A program made the translations under genes and the position numbers. Shown here in pieces: positions 27,856-35,930 of a stretch of 64,000 nt of DNA. The notes beneath the pieces were generated by a model, which was given only the letters and a program-made list of their open reading frames with translations, searched no databases and was not told the origin of the DNA. Numbering within the stretch: the first letter of the stretch is position 1; each line of letters begins with the position of its first letter. The DNA comes from Paenibacillus sp. UNC451MF (GTDB lineage: Bacteria > Bacillota > Bacilli > Paenibacillales > NBRC-103111), in the NCBI RefSeq assembly GCF_000686845.1, contig NZ_JMLS01000022.1, positions 101,156 to 165,155 on the forward strand, in the 5' to 3' direction.

Positions 27856-29007
27856 TTAAAAAGGCCAGTGGAACAACCCGCGGTAGATTTTCATAACCGT
27901 TTCGACGTTGCCGCTGTATACGATAACGGAAAGTGTCACAATAGCTTGAGTAAGGGCACAACGGTACAGGAAGTATGCTCGGGATACCTTCTTCTTGTTT
28001 ACGGTCGATTTGCCCAGCAGGGTCTCTATCGCAATGACGATGCCATGGTAAAGCCCATAGAAAAAGTAGATCCAGCCGAAGCCATGCCATAGCCCGATAA
28101 GCACCATGATGAGAATCGATAAGGCGGCACCCATCCACTTGGTTGGAGCTTTTCTCGTAAAGAACATAAAGATATGGTCACGGAACCAATCGCCGAGGGT
28201 TGCATGCCAGTTGCGCCAAAACTGCGTGAGTGTAGGTGATTGAAACGGTTTCTTGAAGTTTTCTGGTATCGTATAGCCCATAAGGCGGCCAAAACCGATA
28301 GCAATGTCGGAATAACCTGAAAAGTCGAAAAATAGCATAATATAGAACCAAATCATCAGAAAAACGGATTGATGCGTATAAAGCTCCTGTCCTTGCACAT
28401 GATGGAACACATCCGTCATCCAAGTGACGACAACGAGCTTTTTGAACAAGCCGAGAATAATACGCTTAATCCCTTCCTCAACTTGGGTAGAGTTGACCTG
28501 ATAAGGCTTTTTGGCATCGGCCATAAAGTCGCGGAATTTTAGAATCGGCCCTGATGTAAAGGTAGGGACGAACAAAATATAGTTCACATAATCGATGACG
28601 GATGCACGGGCATCCTTACCGAAAAAGTAAGCGAAATAATGAGCGTCGATGACCTTAAGCACATTGTAGATCAAGGTTAGAGCGATAACGGCATCAAATA
28701 GCGGATTTTCGGTCGGCTGCATGCCGAGAAGCCTTATCCCCGAAACAGCAAACACATTCAGAACAATAAGCAGAATGAACCAGAATAAACGCCACTTTTT
28801 CACATGGCATAGCCATAAGAAGCTCATATAGTTCAACAATGTATAGATGATATAAAAGAGAAAAAGCTTCTTGCTAAACAGCAGCAAGAAACATAGGTTG
28901 AACGCCAGCAGCAAGATTCGCTTGTTGTGTGGCCACCAACGGGTGAGGGCCAGGACGATGATCATTCCGATGAGCGCCATGACCGCGTTCATGTTCATAA
29001 AAAACAT
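27856..29007 (-). CDS. MBOAT-family O-acyltransferase, DltB-like
   Basis: A multi-pass membrane acyltransferase of 383 residues with about ten hydrophobic segments. MBOAT hallmarks are present: FDFSGYSDIAIGFGRLMGY (about 227-245), QFWRNWHATLGDWFRDHIF (262-280) and the conserved histidine of LWHGFGW (His308), followed by LYHG. In the Dlt pathway DltB passes the aminoacyl group from the carrier protein across the membrane. It is the last gene of the operon and starts at ATG 29007 after AAGGAG. A double palindromic repeat lies between it and the dltX-like gene. The family also includes AlgI-type acetyltransferases; the carrier-protein neighbour favours DltB. Confidence 0.88.
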   Translation of the reverse strand: MFFMNMNAVMALIGMIIVLALTRWWPHNKRILLLAFNLCFLLLFSKKLFLFYIIYTLLNYMSFLWLCHVKKWRLFWFILLIVLNVFAVSGIRLLGMQPTENPLFDAVIALTLIYNVLKVIDAHYFAYFFGKDARASVIDYVNYILFVPTFTSGPILKFRDFMADAKKPYQVNSTQVEEGIKRIILGLFKKLVVVTWMTDVFHHVQGQELYTHQSVFLMIWFYIMLFFDFSGYSDIAIGFGRLMGYTIPENFKKPFQSPTLTQFWRNWHATLGDWFRDHIFMFFTRKAPTKWMGAALSILIMVLIGLWHGFGWIYFFYGLYHGIVIAIETLLGKSTVNKKKVSRAYFLYRCALTQAIVTLSVIVYSGNVETVMKIYRGLFHWPF

Positions 29008-29022
29008 AGGTTTACTCCTTAG

Positions 29023-29084
29023 AGCTTTCCTCTCAGGAAAGCTAACTTCGTAAGCAATGGCTGAGCTTTCCTCTCAGGAAAGCT
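29023..29084 (-). repeat. Two-copy palindromic ~41-bp repeat inside the dlt-like operon
   Basis: Two identical palindromes, AGCTTTCCT, CTC, AGGAAAGCT (29023-29043 and 29064-29084), are spaced 41 bp. On the minus strand the linker reads TTGCTTACGAAGTT, matching the linkers of the array at 7278-7417. Here too the array lies inside an operon, between two genes, in the same orientation relative to transcription, and ends just before a ribosome binding site. Confidence 0.85.
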
Positions 29085-29103
29085 AACTTCATAAGCACTC
29101 CGT

Positions 29104-29214
29104 TTAAAATCCCTCGTAAATAAACAAACCTTTTCCGGTAAAATAAATCAGAACCATGATCAGCATCGCCGTATAAACGATCACTTCGATGATTTTACGA
29201 GCGAAAGGAGCCAT
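29104..29214 (-). CDS. DltX-like microprotein (36 aa)
   Basis: A 36-residue single-pass membrane protein: basic start MAPFARKIIE, one helix (about 11-26) and the ending LFIYEGF. Canonical DltX ends in a FIYNEF-type motif that reaches the active site of DltB; FIYEGF is close to that. The ATG at 29214 lies inside the dltD-like gene, with a perfect AAGGAGG seven bases upstream, and the two genes overlap by 34 bp in different frames. In canonical operons dltX precedes dltA; here it sits between the dltD-like and dltB-like genes. Call rests on size, topology, end motif and neighbours. Confidence 0.75.
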   Translation of the reverse strand: MAPFARKIIEVIVYTAMLIMVLIYFTGKGLFIYEGF

Positions 29215-30155
29215 GCGTCAACCTCCTTCGTAAATACCGGCGCGCCTTCTTGGCGGCTTAAGTGGACGAGATCGTGAAAGAGCGATTTGTCGTATTTTTG
29301 CAGCAGGTTCAATACTGGGACATTATAAGAAGCTAGTCGTTGATTGACTTCCTCCTGCAATCCAGGCATATACCTTGGCAGCTCGTAAGCCTTGTTCCAT
29401 GGCATCCAGATCACACGAAGCTTGAGATTATGCTCCTTGGCATAAGCCAAAATCCAATCCAGTGCCTGCAGGTTGTCTTTATAATCGTTCCGGGACATCC
29501 AACCAAAGCGCTGGTCGTATTCGGCCCATTTCTTTTTCAGCTCTTCATCGGTTTTTTGTCCGAAATAAAGCTCTTTATCAATCCACCGAGGCTGGTAAGC
29601 CAACGGATGATCCTGACTCAGCTTCAGCGTTTCTGGAAAGGCTGCACAGCCTTTAAGACTTGCAGCATCTTGTCTTAGAAGGCCTTGATACATCGCGCAG
29701 GCGAATTCGGTCCCTGTATCGCGGAAATAATCCCGGTAGGCATACACATAGGGCTGGTACCACGGCTTAAACCATTGGTAGGTAGGGTCGGTGTCCAAGC
29801 TATCAATCATCGTATGGACGTCGATACCGATCACTAGCTCGTCATCCACATGGAAAAGCTGCCGCTCCAAAATTGCTTTCAGATCGGTCAGCTTACCATA
29901 GGAGAGTCCCATTTCTATTAGTTTGGCATTCGACTTTTCCTCGATATAAGCACCGGTAACCGCCGAGTTGCCAAAGAACGTGGGACCATGATCCAGCCAC
30001 TGATGGTGATATAACGTTTTGGTAAAGTCGTTTTTATAAAATCGCCGTGAAGTCGCCATCGGATCCCACATGCTTATGAAAATATCCGATAGGACGAAAA
30101 TGACGATCAGCAGCAGCACAAAGCTGTTTTTGCGAAAAAAAGCGCTCAGTTTCAT
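29181..30155 (-). CDS. DltD-like SGNH-fold membrane-anchored protein
   Basis: A 324-residue protein with one N-terminal transmembrane helix (about 11-29) and an extracellular SGNH-hydrolase-like domain. The candidate catalytic triad is Ser64 in FFGNSAVTG and Asp295/His298 in HDLVHLS near the C-terminus. That arrangement fits DltD, the enzyme that completes transfer of the amino acid to the polymer, and also AlgJ-type proteins. It is 15 bp downstream of the ligase gene. Only a modest AGG-type ribosome binding site precedes the ATG, so coupling to the ligase gene is likely. Confidence 0.82.
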   Translation of the reverse strand: MKLSAFFRKNSFVLLLIVIFVLSDIFISMWDPMATSRRFYKNDFTKTLYHHQWLDHGPTFFGNSAVTGAYIEEKSNAKLIEMGLSYGKLTDLKAILERQLFHVDDELVIGIDVHTMIDSLDTDPTYQWFKPWYQPYVYAYRDYFRDTGTEFACAMYQGLLRQDAASLKGCAAFPETLKLSQDHPLAYQPRWIDKELYFGQKTDEELKKKWAEYDQRFGWMSRNDYKDNLQALDWILAYAKEHNLKLRVIWMPWNKAYELPRYMPGLQEEVNQRLASYNVPVLNLLQKYDKSLFHDLVHLSRQEGAPVFTKEVDAWLLSLVKSSK

Positions 30156-30170
30156 AAGGAACCTACATCT

Positions 30171-31367
30171 TTACAACGATTTTTGCTGCCAAGCATGGTA
30201 CTGCTCACGGAAAGTGGCAGGCCAGTTCGATTCTTCTAATCCATATTGGGCCAAAAATGCAAATGCCCAGCGTTCGATTCCAAAGCCGACACAACCGGTA
30301 ACGGCATTGCGTTTGCCCATTTTAATATTAAAAGCTGTACCGAACGTATTACTATGGAAGTTTATGGAGCTGCATGCGATCGACTTGTTCACGTAAGGGA
30401 CCGTCAAACGCAGCTCATATTTCATTTCCTGATTCCGCTGGAAGGAAGCTTTAGTTTGAAAATCATTGGTGAAGAACGGATCATTAGCGATTTCCATCAT
30501 GCTATCTACATTCCATTCAACAGCAAGCTCTTTGATGTACTCGATAGAACGAAGACGGTTTTCTTTAACAAACTCCGGTTTACCTACGAAAATAATTTCG
30601 CGCATGCTGAAGTCGAGCAAACGACCGAAGTCACTATGGTTGCGTGATTCAAAACGGTGACATTTGGAGATAGCGGAAACGATAACGCCTTCGCCTTCCA
30701 AGGTTTCGTTTTGAAGTCCTTCGTAGCAGTGGTAGCATGTCGATGGATTCATCGTAAACTTCGGCTTCGGCATGGTTGCGTTCAGATCCAAAGGACCGTC
30801 CTGCTTCCAGCCTCCGGCATCGCGAATCGATTGGGAGAATGTCTCGATAATATCGAGGTCCTCACGTAGATGCGTAAGAAAATGAATATGCTCTGGAAAC
30901 GAGGTAAAGTGGTTCGTTTTGTTCAAAGTGTCAGCGTGAATAACTGCTGGATAGGATTCTTCCTTCACTCCAGCAAACCGATTAGCCACTTTGGTTACGA
31001 AGGAATAGTCGAAAAAGCGCATCAGACTGGAAAACGGCTCGCGGAAAATGAACAAGCCCGGCTCCAGTACTTTGATGATTTTACGGTCTACAAGCTCGGA
31101 AATAATGTCGCCCTCATAGGGGGTATCGACTTTATGCTCGAATAAAATGTTTTCTTTAAAGCCAAAATCGCCTTGTGAGAAACGGGTAATCAATCGGCAA
31201 ACGTGCGCTTCAATCGCTTCGTTACCTTTTTCCGATTCATGGGTGATATAGATGTTGTTATCGTCAATCCGAATGTCGCGGATTTGCTCGTCGATGAAGG
31301 CGGCGGCGTATTTCAATTGTCCGTGTTGGCTAGAAGCCAATCCCTCTAGGGATACGACGCATTCCAT
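30171..31367 (-). CDS. Class II aminoacyl-tRNA-synthetase-like amino acid:[carrier protein] ligase
   Basis: A 398-residue homologue of atypical SerRS-type synthetases that load an amino acid onto the phosphopantetheine of a carrier protein instead of tRNA. Class II motif 2 is KCHRFES (235-241), motif 3 GFGIER (361-366). A zinc triad fits Cys211 (STCYHCYEG), Glu257 (MREIIF) and Cys359 (TGCVG); the spacing (46 and 102) nearly equals that of the characterised Bradyrhizobium Gly:CP ligase as I recall it (Cys131, Glu176, Cys279). No tRNA-binding domain is visible. It starts 6 bp after the carrier-protein gene. It takes the place of DltA; the amino acid used is unknown, glycine or alanine being the best guesses. 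Confidence 0.85.
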   Translation of the reverse strand: MECVVSLEGLASSQHGQLKYAAAFIDEQIRDIRIDDNNIYITHESEKGNEAIEAHVCRLITRFSQGDFGFKENILFEHKVDTPYEGDIISELVDRKIIKVLEPGLFIFREPFSSLMRFFDYSFVTKVANRFAGVKEESYPAVIHADTLNKTNHFTSFPEHIHFLTHLREDLDIIETFSQSIRDAGGWKQDGPLDLNATMPKPKFTMNPSTCYHCYEGLQNETLEGEGVIVSAISKCHRFESRNHSDFGRLLDFSMREIIFVGKPEFVKENRLRSIEYIKELAVEWNVDSMMEIANDPFFTNDFQTKASFQRNQEMKYELRLTVPYVNKSIACSSINFHSNTFGTAFNIKMGKRNAVTGCVGFGIERWAFAFLAQYGLEESNWPATFREQYHAWQQKSL

Positions 31368-31373
31368 AGTTTA

Positions 31374-31625
31374 TTACCTCGCAGTCTTGGTCTGAATGAA
31401 ATCGGCGATTTCTCGCACTGTATTCATAGAATAAAGCATAAGGTCTTGGTTCGTCACCTGGATAGAGTACGTTTTCTCGATATGAGCTATCAGGGCCGTA
31501 GCTCCGATGGAATCGATATAGCCGTAATCGAACAAATGTACGTCAACGGTAAAATCATCATCATCCGCTTCAATTTCGTAGCGGTTGCGGATATGCTCTT
31601 CGAGCTGTTGGAGCAAATCTTGCAT
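31374..31625 (-). CDS. Acyl carrier protein, DltC-like
   Basis: An 83-residue acidic carrier protein. The phosphopantetheine attachment serine is Ser39 in LFDYGYIDSIGATAL, which resembles the LLDS motif of DltC more than the DSL of fatty-acid ACP. Predicted four-helix fold, normal length. AAAGGGGG precedes the ATG. It lies 6 bp before the synthetase-like ligase, its likely loading enzyme. The 136-bp upstream gap to the FG-GAP gene holds a hairpin but no obvious promoter. Confidence 0.88.
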   Translation of the reverse strand: MQDLLQQLEEHIRNRYEIEADDDDFTVDVHLFDYGYIDSIGATALIAHIEKTYSIQVTNQDLMLYSMNTVREIADFIQTKTAR

Positions 31626-31761: not shown

Positions 31762-34700
31762 TTAGTAACGGATGGTAATCGTTGTCGGAGGGCCGAAATG
31801 GGTCACCGTATACGTGCCTTCGGTCTCCTTATGGTCGACTTGGAGCTGATCTCCTTCGATCGTGAGCGGCTTGGAGCTTTGCAGCTGAATTTGCTGCATA
31901 CCATCCGATAGCCACTCGAGCTTCCATTGGCCATGCTGCTTATCCAGCTTATACGGCACATTGGAACGGAGCAGATGCAGTCGGTTATCTTCACTGCCGC
32001 CGAACCATATTTTGGTCGCCTGCGGCACGCCCAGGTATAGCTTATTGTTGAGCGAGTTAAACACGTCGGCATCGGTAGACACCGGACGGTCTTCATAAGC
32101 CAGGCCGCGTTCGATAACGACGCCGAGAGTACCTTTGTATTCGGCAGCTTGAGCAGGCACGTTATCGGTTGAAGGCTTGATGCGAATGGATGGCTCTGTG
32201 TGTACGCCGACCATTCGTTTCAAATGATCCAGTACCACCTCGATCCATGGACGGTATACTGTCGTTTGGGTCGTTAATGTGTTAAGGACGGTACGTGCCA
32301 TTTGCGGTTCCTTCATAAAGTTGTAGCTGTATTGATTGCGGATCTGGTCCAAATATTTAACGAATTCCAGCAGTCCGCCTGGGCCGGCTACACCATTAGG
32401 CATCTTGTATTCGATATGCTCGAAATAATCGATAGGCAGGTCCATATTAATATACGATTGGAACAGATCTTCCGTTGAATACTGTCCGAGCCGAAGCACA
32501 GGTGCCGGTGTGCTAAGAAGCATTGGCGGATTCGACGGCTCGGACGAGCCTTGATCCGTCATCAGGAACGGGAAGCCCCAGTTGTACTGCACGCCAAGCC
32601 GGGGTTCGTTCGGTATATTAGATGGACGGAAACCGAAATTGTACCAAATCCCGGCGCCGCGCTCGTTGTTCAACGTTTGCGTACGGTCGGGGTTATTGAT
32701 CCGCCATGTATGCTGGTTTGTTCCCGGCATGTTCCACGGGATGTCCAAGGTTTTGAACGATTTTTGCTGCAGAGCGATTTCTTCCTTCTCTTGCTCGTCG
32801 CTCGTATAATTATGGACAAACGTATGCGGGTACAAGTCCAGGTAATGATCTTTGTTGTATTGTATAAAGGCTTTCAGCTGCTCCGCATAAGGAAACTTAG
32901 GATCGTCGACGGTAATCGGCATACCGAATTCCAATTGACCGACGATCAGGTCATCTTTGCCGTCATGATTCAAGTCATACCAGAGCGGCACAGAGTTGTG
33001 TCCGCCAACGAGAGCATGATTGCCGAGCTGATTCACGGTCGCGCCTTCCACAATGCCGGAAGGCTTCCAGGTGCCGTCTGCCTGCTGTAAATAGATACGC
33101 AGGTCGCCTTCGATATTGCCGACCACGAGGTCGGCCCGACCATCGCCGTTCATGTCACGGATCGACGGCGCGGCGAATCGAGCGGGCAGCTTGAACAGCA
33201 AGCTGCCGGTGTCAAAGACGATGGGCTCCCCGGCTATGCCGGAGCCCGAGCCAGCGCCTGCGGCGCCGCCGCGGCCCGCTGTGCGGTGGCCGCGATAGAG
33301 CGTCACACCGCCATCCGCATCCCCGACCACCAGGTCGGGTACGCCGTCGGCGGTGATGTCGCCCAGAGCCGGAGCCACCGGCGCCGCGGCTCGGATGGGC
33401 TTGCCGCCCGCCAATAGCGGGGCGGGCTCTGTGAACGTGCCGCCGGCTTCGCCATAGGCGGCAGCAAGCGTGCCGTCGGCCAGCCCGATAATCAGGTCGG
33501 GCCGGCCGTCGCCGTTGATATCGTACGCCGCGACGCTGGCGTACGCATCGGTCTTGAGCGGCTGACCATTCTTCAGCCGCAGCGGCTCGCGCTTGCCGAA
33601 GGCATCGGGCGCGGTCATGCCGTCGGGCAGCATTTGCCCGGCGTAGGCATCAGGCTTCAGCCCGTTGCTCAGGTAAGCTGAGATGGTGCCGTCGGCTGAG
33701 CCAACGATCAGGTCCAGCTTGCCGTCGCCGTTCAAGTCCGCTAGGGCAGGATAAGCCCTAAAAGCTTTATCAATAGGATCACCAAGCGAGCGATAATCCG
33801 GGTACAGCGCGAGCTGAATCGGCATCCCCTCGCTTATAACTCGGGTGCCGCTCGAATAAAACGAGTTCGGCGTTTCCCCTACGAAGGAAGGCTTGTCATT
33901 CGTTCCTGTATTCAAATGGACGGCAAGCGATTCCTGCCAACGTCCCCAATGAAACGACGAACGTACGAGCGTAAAGGAAGGTACCTGATTGTACTTTTTC
34001 AGCAGCTCAGCCCATTGAATGCCTTCGCCGTCGCGAATCGCTTCGATAGCCTCGAAATGATTTTGATGCGACATGGCTGGCCGACCGTAAGGTCCGAGCA
34101 CTTTTTTGATGCTGTAACCAAGCGTTTCTTTGGAAACGAAGGCTACGTATTCGCTCCGGAACAGCGCGCTCCCTGCACTGAAGGTGAAATGAAAGTAAGG
34201 CTCGAGCGGCAGCTGTCCGCGATCGTAATATAGCGCGCCCGCGGTCGGCTTCTTGGCTTGATTCGTTTCTTCAGCCAGCTTGGTGAAGCCAAGGCTCGGG
34301 TCCATGCCGCTGCTCATGTCATAGCCTGTAATGTAGAAGCGATTCGGCAGAAGAGCACTACTGAAAAACACAGTTCCTTTGCCATATCGATTCAAGGCGT
34401 ACAGCGCCTTATCGTTCAACGATACCATCGGTTCTGCGGTCGAAGGGATCATTCCCTTCCCCCATGAGAACTTTTGCAGGTCGGATAATCCGTCATGATT
34501 GATATAGTTGTCCATGAACTGCCTGAACAACTGCTGCAACGACTGCAAATTCAGCTCGACATCAGGATAAGTGAATGTCTCTGTAGCAGGCGATGCCGTT
34601 TTTGCCGTACTGACGGCAAGGGCTTTGGGCGGCGAAAGCTCTACGAGCTCCTTCGCGCCGATAAAGGCCAACGGAAAATCCGCGGCCAATCCATTTTCAA

Positions 34701-35028
34701 GGAACAGATGCCCTCCCTGCGATACATAGCTTTGAAGCAGCTCGCGCTGCTTGTCTGTGATCGCTTCATGAAGGGAAGGATCCAAATAGACGGCTTCATA
34801 GCTTTTCAATTGCTTAAGAGAAAGCTTATCCAAACTGCGCCGTTCTAATTGCAAATTAGCGATTAATGATTGTTTAAACTGACCGTAGGCTGCCGAGTCG
34901 AAGCTGTCGCCGTTCGAAACATAGAGCATACGAACAGATAGCTCCTTGTCGGAGACGGCCAACCACGCTGCGAGGATAAGCAGAATGCCGATAACGGCGC
35001 CTGCGATCCGGGCTTTTGTTAACTTCAT
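31762..35028 (-). CDS. Large membrane-anchored surface protein with FG-GAP/VCBS repeats
   Basis: A protein of about 1088 residues with an N-terminal membrane anchor (about 5-25) and a long extracellular part. Residues about 30-110 look like an alpha/beta domain; about 425-700 hold five FG-GAP repeats with the calcium-binding pattern DxNGDGxxD (DLNGDGKLD, DINGDGRPD, DITADGVPD, DMNGDGRAD, DLNHDGKDD), likely part of a beta-propeller. The last 350 residues are unknown. ATG 35028 follows GAGGG; a TTG at 35040 is less likely. It heads the dlt-like operon. A role as scaffold, sensor or acceptor-polymer binder is speculation. The repeat-coding part is clearly more GC-rich than its surroundings. Confidence 0.8.
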   Translation of the reverse strand: MKLTKARIAGAVIGILLILAAWLAVSDKELSVRMLYVSNGDSFDSAAYGQFKQSLIANLQLERRSLDKLSLKQLKSYEAVYLDPSLHEAITDKQRELLQSYVSQGGHLFLENGLAADFPLAFIGAKELVELSPPKALAVSTAKTASPATETFTYPDVELNLQSLQQLFRQFMDNYINHDGLSDLQKFSWGKGMIPSTAEPMVSLNDKALYALNRYGKGTVFFSSALLPNRFYITGYDMSSGMDPSLGFTKLAEETNQAKKPTAGALYYDRGQLPLEPYFHFTFSAGSALFRSEYVAFVSKETLGYSIKKVLGPYGRPAMSHQNHFEAIEAIRDGEGIQWAELLKKYNQVPSFTLVRSSFHWGRWQESLAVHLNTGTNDKPSFVGETPNSFYSSGTRVISEGMPIQLALYPDYRSLGDPIDKAFRAYPALADLNGDGKLDLIVGSADGTISAYLSNGLKPDAYAGQMLPDGMTAPDAFGKREPLRLKNGQPLKTDAYASVAAYDINGDGRPDLIIGLADGTLAAAYGEAGGTFTEPAPLLAGGKPIRAAAPVAPALGDITADGVPDLVVGDADGGVTLYRGHRTAGRGGAAGAGSGSGIAGEPIVFDTGSLLFKLPARFAAPSIRDMNGDGRADLVVGNIEGDLRIYLQQADGTWKPSGIVEGATVNQLGNHALVGGHNSVPLWYDLNHDGKDDLIVGQLEFGMPITVDDPKFPYAEQLKAFIQYNKDHYLDLYPHTFVHNYTSDEQEKEEIALQQKSFKTLDIPWNMPGTNQHTWRINNPDRTQTLNNERGAGIWYNFGFRPSNIPNEPRLGVQYNWGFPFLMTDQGSSEPSNPPMLLSTPAPVLRLGQYSTEDLFQSYINMDLPIDYFEHIEYKMPNGVAGPGGLLEFVKYLDQIRNQYSYNFMKEPQMARTVLNTLTTQTTVYRPWIEVVLDHLKRMVGVHTEPSIRIKPSTDNVPAQAAEYKGTLGVVIERGLAYEDRPVSTDADVFNSLNNKLYLGVPQATKIWFGGSEDNRLHLLRSNVPYKLDKQHGQWKLEWLSDGMQQIQLQSSKPLTIEGDQLQVDHKETEGTYTVTHFGPPTTITIRY

Positions 35029-35066
35029 GAAATCCCTCAATTACATCTGGGTTGGACTACCTTGCA

Positions 35067-35228: not shown

Positions 35229-35930
35229 GTGAACGTTCAGATGAATGATCATCGACATCATCCCGATATTCGTACTATAAAAAAACGGTTTTTTGCGGCG
35301 CTTCCTTTTTATGTTGCGGTACCAGTCCTGCTAGCGTTAATTTTCATATGGGGCAGTGGATATGGTATCGAATGGAGCGGCTTTGGGTTAGGAGCGCTAG
35401 GCTGGTTGGTTGCTCTAATGCTAAGGGGGCCAGTAGCCGCACTCTCAATGAAACTACCTAAGTCAAAGGCACAAACCATTATAGTAGCATCATCCGGTGT
35501 GCTGGAGGAGAGCGTTCGTCTAGTGTTGCTATGGCTGGCCACCGCTTCGATGCCATGGGCATTATCCGCAGGACAGGGCTGGGCCGCAATTGAGGTTGTA
35601 TATGCTATCGTCTCTGGCTTTGCTACACTTTCTTTGATGTCACGTACGGACGAGAAGGCGAAGCAGGCGCAAGCGCTATTGGCGGCGCAGGGAACAGGGA
35701 ATGTTCATCCGCTGTGGGGAGCTGTTGAGCGATTATCTGCTAGCTTGTTTCATATTGGGGCGACGCTGCTATTAGCGCATCACCCACTACTGCTGATTGT
35801 TATGATTCCAGTACACAGCCTGTTCAATTTGTCCGCTGTTTGGTTGATGAAGCGCTCTGTAGTATGGACCGAGATATTTATTGCTGTTATAGGTATTCTG
35901 GTATTTACAGCCGGTTGGCTTTTAAAATAG
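35229..35930 (+). CDS. YhfC-family intramembrane protease-like protein
   Basis: A 233-residue protein with about seven hydrophobic segments. It resembles YhfC (DUF2324), related to the CAAX/CPBP intramembrane proteases: EESVRLVLLWL supplies the paired glutamates, HIGATLLL and HSLFNLSAVWL the membrane histidines. Its substrate is unknown. GTG 35229 follows AAGGAG. It is a single gene under a palindromic operator, divergent from the dlt-like operon; the shared region could link the two, but each has its own promoter. Confidence 0.75.
   Translation: MNVQMNDHRHHPDIRTIKKRFFAALPFYVAVPVLLALIFIWGSGYGIEWSGFGLGALGWLVALMLRGPVAALSMKLPKSKAQTIIVASSGVLEESVRLVLLWLATASMPWALSAGQGWAAIEVVYAIVSGFATLSLMSRTDEKAKQAQALLAAQGTGNVHPLWGAVERLSASLFHIGATLLLAHHPLLLIVMIPVHSLFNLSAVWLMKRSVVWTEIFIAVIGILVFTAGWLLK

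Follow-up and report, generated by a model that had tools for sequence, protein, structure and literature searches.

A stretch of 64,000 nucleotides from Paenibacillus sp. UNC451MF (contig NZ_JMLS01000022.1, positions 101,156 to 165,155; the window) carries on its minus strand, between 27856 and 31625, a Dlt-type operon in which a tRNA-synthetase-like ligase stands among genes for a carrier protein, a membrane-bound O-acyltransferase (MBOAT), a DltX-like microprotein and a DltD-like protein, with no DltA. As a reading of the sequence this core is well supported; what is established is that the genes and their motifs are present, that their linkage is conserved and that nearly all relatives examined lack a canonical DltA. 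The ligase would charge the carrier with an amino acid, which the MBOAT, DltX-like and DltD-like proteins would export and attach to an envelope polymer, a reading to which we assign a probability of about 0.72. A conserved operon that joins a ligase of the amino acid:[carrier protein] type to a Dlt-type export chain suggests a direct, testable role for such ligases. If the reading is correct, evolution has found at least two solutions to loading in envelope aminoacylation: adenylation enzymes of the DltA type and a tRNA-synthetase descendant.

Ligase, carrier and conserved linkage

An earlier note, made from the sequence alone, had described five adjoining minus-strand open reading frames (ORFs) in this interval, and all five are present in the order it gave. 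Together with an upstream FG-GAP gene they follow one another from 35040 down to 27856:

31762..35040, minus strand: FG-GAP (beta-propeller) protein, 1092 aa, TTG start (PF13517, E 1.4e-28)
31374..31625, minus strand: carrier protein, 83 aa, phosphopantetheine site D38-S39 (PF00550, E 8.6e-12)
30171..31367, minus strand: class II tRNA-synthetase-like protein resembling amino acid:[carrier protein] ligases, 398 aa (PRK07080, E 1.5e-43)
29181..30155, minus strand: DltD-like SGNH-type protein, 324 aa, G62-N63-S64 and D295xxH298 (remote DltD matches)
29104..29214, minus strand: DltX-like microprotein, 36 aa, C-terminal FIYEGF with Tyr33; overlaps the end of the DltD-like gene
27856..29007, minus strand: DltB-sized MBOAT, 383 aa, conserved His268 and His308, no C-terminal FxYxxF (PF03062 above cut-off)

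The nearest named relatives of the window genome (G000, 7.49 Mb) at this locus are Paenibacillus, and the ligase is 98% identical in Paenibacillus sp. RC67. Judged by its sequence, the ligase is a member of the superfamily of amino acid:[carrier protein] ligases and type-2 seryl-tRNA synthetases (SerRS) with a Cys/Glu/Cys set. The NCBIfam model PRK07080, 'amino acid--[acyl-carrier-protein] ligase', scores 148.9 bits, under its 357-bit cut-off, and the type-2 SerRS models PRK00960 (144.9 vs 611 bits) and TIGR00415 (119.9 vs 489.55) miss theirs as well. The solved ligase Bll0957 (3mey) matches at E 7.5e-28, and the triad C211/E257/C359, singled out by the earlier note, aligns with identical residues in Bll0957, presumably the Zn ligands of that enzyme. 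All three residues are kept without exception in the 17 aligned ligases, two of these distant; across 69 operon ligases C211 and E257 never vary, and 67 keep C359, the exceptions being ligases of odd length (L095 and L098; 412 and 325 aa). R238/E240 and R366 presumably occupy the ATP-binding positions of class II motifs 2 and 3. The Zn and ATP sites, whose absence the earlier note had named as a refutation of its case, thus appear to be in place at the level of residues. From about residue 30 onward the ligase family profile aligns to SerRS residues 126-139 onward, so that in this profile alignment nothing matches the beginning of type-2 SerRS, which may bear on the loss of the tRNA-binding domain that marks amino acid:[carrier protein] ligases. 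Residue 361 is Gly in 67/69 operon ligases and in both aligned SerRS chains, and Ala in Bll0957 and the ligase of Tumebacillus permanentifrigoris; the position can be taken only as a lead to the shape of the substrate pocket. One 76% identical ligase (P0086, among the 120 of 736 proteins listed) bears the source name Chlamydia abortus amid Paenibacillus names and is probably a mislabelled or contaminated record.

The ligase gene lies a median of 6 nucleotides from the carrier gene at the operon loci. The carrier had been described as having a DltC-like DS motif; the PF00550 match bears out the family and D38 and S39 are kept in 70/70 loci, but the likeness to DltC itself stays below the cut-offs of both DltC models (PRK05087, 27.8 vs 68 bits; TIGR01688, 20.7 vs 52.35).

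At all 70 named loci the carrier, ligase, DltD-like and DltX-like genes are found together, joined by an MBOAT and by an FG-GAP gene in 69 each. The contig of L091 ends before any MBOAT, and the FG-GAP gene is unseen in L098 because that sequence begins 55 bases before the carrier match; L086 and L101 have other ORFs between the DltX-like gene and the MBOAT. The proteins listed were 120 of 736 in one set and 120 of 1340 in another, and extraction by locus gave 69 ligases (L096 absent), 69 MBOATs (L091 absent) and 63 FG-GAP ORFs (absent: L041, L044, L050, L052, L056, L096, L098). Because this gene set is conserved from locus to locus, chance is untenable as an explanation.

A wider view comes from 98 relatives, 57 of which have a ligase, operon-type in 54 and distant in three. 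In 51 of the 54 operon-type genomes the ligase has an MBOAT no more than 8 kb away, a count that leaves out the genomes with a distant ligase only (G061, G069, G077); in the other three the contigs stop 0.6 kb, 12 bases and 4.1 kb past the DltX-like gene, which all three have. Samples of 398 genomes each from the class and the phylum gave 13 and two ligase matches, the operon type occurring only in the window genome and T. permanentifrigoris in the former and only in the window genome in the latter; beyond these samples the type may be more widespread. Tumebacillus has all six genes, the five core ones in the window's order and the FG-GAP gene behind the MBOAT rather than upstream. The same six genes occur in G064 and G071, with flanking genes kept in part.

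DltA is largely missing from this group. The DltA model TIGR01734 finds adenylation domains in 98/98 relatives and exceeds its cut-off in one; the window genome has no DltA above the TIGR01734 cut-off, its two sub-threshold matches reaching E 1.1e-33 at best. The sole exception, G017, has an intact-looking dlt operon in canonical order (L170:6555-10903), with DltA and DltB above cut-off and DltD recognised by PF04914, and on a short contig elsewhere carrier, ligase, DltD-like and DltX-like genes of the ligase-operon kind. Since this genome has both, canonical dlt and the ligase operon can coexist, and mutual exclusion of DltA and ligase was rejected. The earlier note had called DltA 'replaced' by the ligase. 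An operon of this kind without DltA is there, but with DltA above cut-off in 1/98 its absence extends beyond the ligase operon, to genomes in which that operon is also missing, and as history the word is too strong.

The predicted export proteins and the FG-GAP protein

The 36-residue protein, described beforehand as single-pass and ending in FIYEGF, has indeed a single hydrophobic segment, and its C-terminus fits FxYxxF in 70/70 loci (FIYEGF 44, FIYEKF 25, FIYEDF 1). An excerpt of a paper on MBOAT-SGNH systems presents a carrier protein and a separate DltX microprotein with FxYxxF as peculiar to Dlt in comparison with acyl-CoA-fed systems, and describes the MBOAT-SGNH pathways other than Dlt as having no such microprotein (PMC12148441). 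In two other Bacilli (G109 and G116) an SGNH-type protein, an MBOAT of 396-398 aa and a microprotein of 38-40 aa ending in FIYTDF are encoded together (L223:6767-9235 on the minus strand, L224:5626-8070 on the plus strand), and neither carrier nor ligase was found beside them in the 15-kb stretch. These sets look like an intermediate type.

The MBOAT, the single one that PF03062 finds in the window genome, is a member of the acyltransferase family to which it had been assigned: PF03062 is above cut-off and the family profile matches the solved DltB 6bug at E 2.9e-40. Its score against the DltB model TIGR04091, 177.6 bits, does not reach the cut-off of 375. Two conserved His residues align with those of canonical DltB, a protein whose active site is reported to contain His289 and His336 (PMC11035591). 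None of 69 operon MBOATs ends in FxYxxF; all 23 AlgI-type MBOATs checked have a C-terminal FxYxxF of their own, these 23 being the ones in returned loci with long frames, a subset of the long ones found.

The DltD-like protein has one hydrophobic segment, N-terminal, at 3-34. S64 of the GNS motif is kept in 70/70 loci and D295 and H298 in 69, the remaining row being gapped. Its resemblance to DltD is slight: TIGR04092 gives E 0.025, PF04914 matches 4/28 family members (best E 8.1e-4), the stretch of the family profile that aligns with canonical DltD is just 87 columns long (probability 57%, E 1.1e-4), and among solved structures the best match, at E 0.42, was of no use. Of the membrane SGNH protein that had been proposed, the membrane segment and the GNS and DxxH motifs stand, but the link to DltD is only remote.

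The FG-GAP protein, which resembles integrin-type propellers, has one hydrophobic segment, N-terminal, at 5-34. Its gene lies upstream of the carrier gene in 69/70 loci, and on this pattern it is likely to be a sixth member of the cluster. It may bind or present the acceptor, a contact guessed from linkage. Outside the propeller the alignment of this protein has large conserved stretches with no Pfam match.

Proposed mechanism, acceptor and alternatives

Every catalytic step, loading, transfer and choice of amino acid alike, is one that we infer. In the proposed route the ligase would activate an amino acid with ATP, using the predicted Zn site C211/E257/C359, and place it on the phosphopantetheine of carrier Ser39. 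The MBOAT would then take the amino acid off the carrier; Tyr33 of the DltX-like protein would receive it next and Ser64 of the DltD-like protein after that, before it ends as an ester on an extracellular polymer.

This resembles canonical dltXABCD in the carrier, an MBOAT without FxYxxF of its own, a DltX-type microprotein with FxYxxF and a putative DltD-type SGNH protein. It differs in that the loader is a class II tRNA-synthetase homologue and not DltA, the order is carrier-ligase-D-X-B, the MBOAT forms its own lineage, the DltD-like protein is only remotely similar and there is an extra FG-GAP gene. Most likely the operon works like Dlt, yet its proteins fail the DltA, DltB and DltC cut-offs and its loader appears to come from a different enzyme superfamily. 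With Bll0957-type ligases the operon shares the catalytic core, the Cys/Glu/Cys set and an adjoining carrier gene; unlike them, its ligase falls below the PRK07080 cut-off and is set among MBOAT, DltX-like and DltD-like genes. AlgI/PatA-type systems likewise combine an MBOAT, an SGNH protein and the FxYxxF acyl-shuttle motif (PMC12148441), but in those the MBOAT itself carries the motif (23/23) and acyl-CoA is the donor, in place of a separate microprotein, carrier and ligase. In AlmEFG, which glycylates lipid A in Vibrio cholerae, a dedicated ligase and carrier also deliver glycine to an envelope molecule; the passages of PMC12930378 that we draw on group AlmE with DltA as an adenylate-forming carrier ligase, make AlmG the transferase and name no MBOAT or DltX. 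AlmEFG offers a precedent: an envelope molecule receives glycine from a carrier there, and the loader is one that is grouped with DltA. Among the matches listed in the open-licence literature (titles and abstract openings) we found no tRNA-synthetase-like ligase linked to MBOAT or Dlt genes; most subscription papers lie outside it, and absence from print is not proven.

Several observations weigh against a Dlt-like reading. The carrier scores slightly better against models of a cispentacin carrier (32.2 bits) and an ornithine-lipid carrier (28.9) than against DltC (27.8), all below cut-off. A tree, flagged for long branches, puts DltB, the operon MBOATs and the AlgI-plus-microprotein MBOATs in separate lineages, and AlgI-type MBOATs score against TIGR04091 in the same range as the operon MBOAT. 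That score was consequently dropped as proof of DltB (a 475-aa frame in G034, for example, reaches 182.6 bits), and with the cut-off missed, AlgI-type scores similar and the lineage separate, we do not claim the MBOAT as DltB. The homology of the DltD-like protein to DltD is remote, and the SGNH call is the weakest assignment. Since FIYTDF microproteins occur in carrier-free sets, the microprotein alone is no proof of carrier feeding. Finally, within Paenibacillus the flanks are conserved too (a sugar-isomerase-like gene in 69/70 loci, UvrA in 64/70), and synteny there was discounted as proof of a functional unit. Tumebacillus is the better test of linkage, because none of the seven tested window flanking genes was found in its 16-kb stretch.

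It is quite unlikely that the ligase and carrier work in some other pathway, for instance towards a small peptide, while the MBOAT, DltX-like and DltD-like proteins use acyl-CoA. The carrier-free sets in G109 and G116 would fit such a division, as would the distant amino acid:[carrier protein] ligases: 16 fetched loci with 25-37% identity have no MBOAT, DltD-like or DltX-like match, with a carrier-like match in three, and the neighbours at two loci read in detail suggest other pathways, with labels taken from reading translations. Against it, the set is intact in 70/70 named loci (MBOAT 69) and in Tumebacillus, and the reading frames of the DltD-like and DltX-like proteins overlap. The earlier note had named a ligase widely conserved without MBOAT partners as damaging to its case; this is true of the wider superfamily (16 loci) and not of the operon subfamily (MBOAT in 51/54).

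Class II synthetase folds generally select L-amino acids or glycine. Since the loader descends from tRNA synthetases, D-alanine is a less likely substrate than glycine or an L-amino acid (Ala or Ser). The Dlt-like downstream proteins are what one would expect had the ligase loaded D-alanine, giving an ordinary D-alanyl ester by way of an unusual loader. The kinship of the ligase with tRNA synthetases and amino acid:[carrier protein] ligases makes this improbable, an excerpt of a 2022 review giving Gly, Ala and Ser as substrates of the latter and calling their biological role unknown (PMC9437257). If true, the loading route set out above predicts that these bacteria, whose examined relatives almost all lack a canonical DltA, carry on their surface an ester of some amino acid that is not D-alanine.

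As to the acceptor, we tentatively propose that a tRNA-synthetase descendant has been recruited as loader for a Dlt-type export chain, by which glycine or an L-amino acid would be esterified to an envelope polymer other than teichoic acid. If so, orphan amino acid:[carrier protein] ligases would gain a pathway, and Paenibacillus relatives a new aminoacylated surface polymer. It is possible, if rather doubtful, that the same loading route ends on lipoteichoic or wall teichoic acid and that the operon is a functional stand-in for canonical Dlt. The DltB-, DltX- and DltD-like parts favour such an acceptor, as do the LtaS-like proteins of the window genome, one (L227) at 308.7 bits over nearly the whole model, below the 970-bit cut-off, and another at E 1.5e-123. 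Opposed to this, with the line drawn, arbitrarily, at E <=1e-50, LtaS goes unmatched in 13 of the 32 operon-bearing genomes among 59 searched; the 13 include two that are less than 75% complete, and among the other 19 G008 passes by a split match only. TagB/TagF (PF04464) was found in 7/59 genomes, among operon genomes strongly in G021, weakly and partially in the window genome and G009, and below cut-off in G001. With a strong LtaS match often lacking and TagB/TagF rare, a teichoic acceptor is possible and not assured, and the acceptor need not be teichoic acid.

A 657-aa protein of the sulfatase/LtaS family was considered as acceptor synthase and set aside with no claim made, its homologues of at least 49% identity tracking the operon loosely: close homologues are missing, for example, in G007, G018, G019, G037, G042 and G071 and present in the operon-less G040. 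The window genome has 44 sulfatase-family (PF00884) matches, an unusually large set.

Other features of the locus

Promoter and terminator scans gave nothing in excess of shuffles. Between the DltX-like and MBOAT genes lies a repeated element:

29023-29043 and 29064-29084, minus-strand copies: 21-nt palindromic element, two exact copies (shuffles expect 0)

Beside the operon, 35229-35930 on the plus strand has a weak likeness to YhfC-type intramembrane metalloproteases (E 1.9e-4, below cut-off) and is found near the operon in 4/70 loci.

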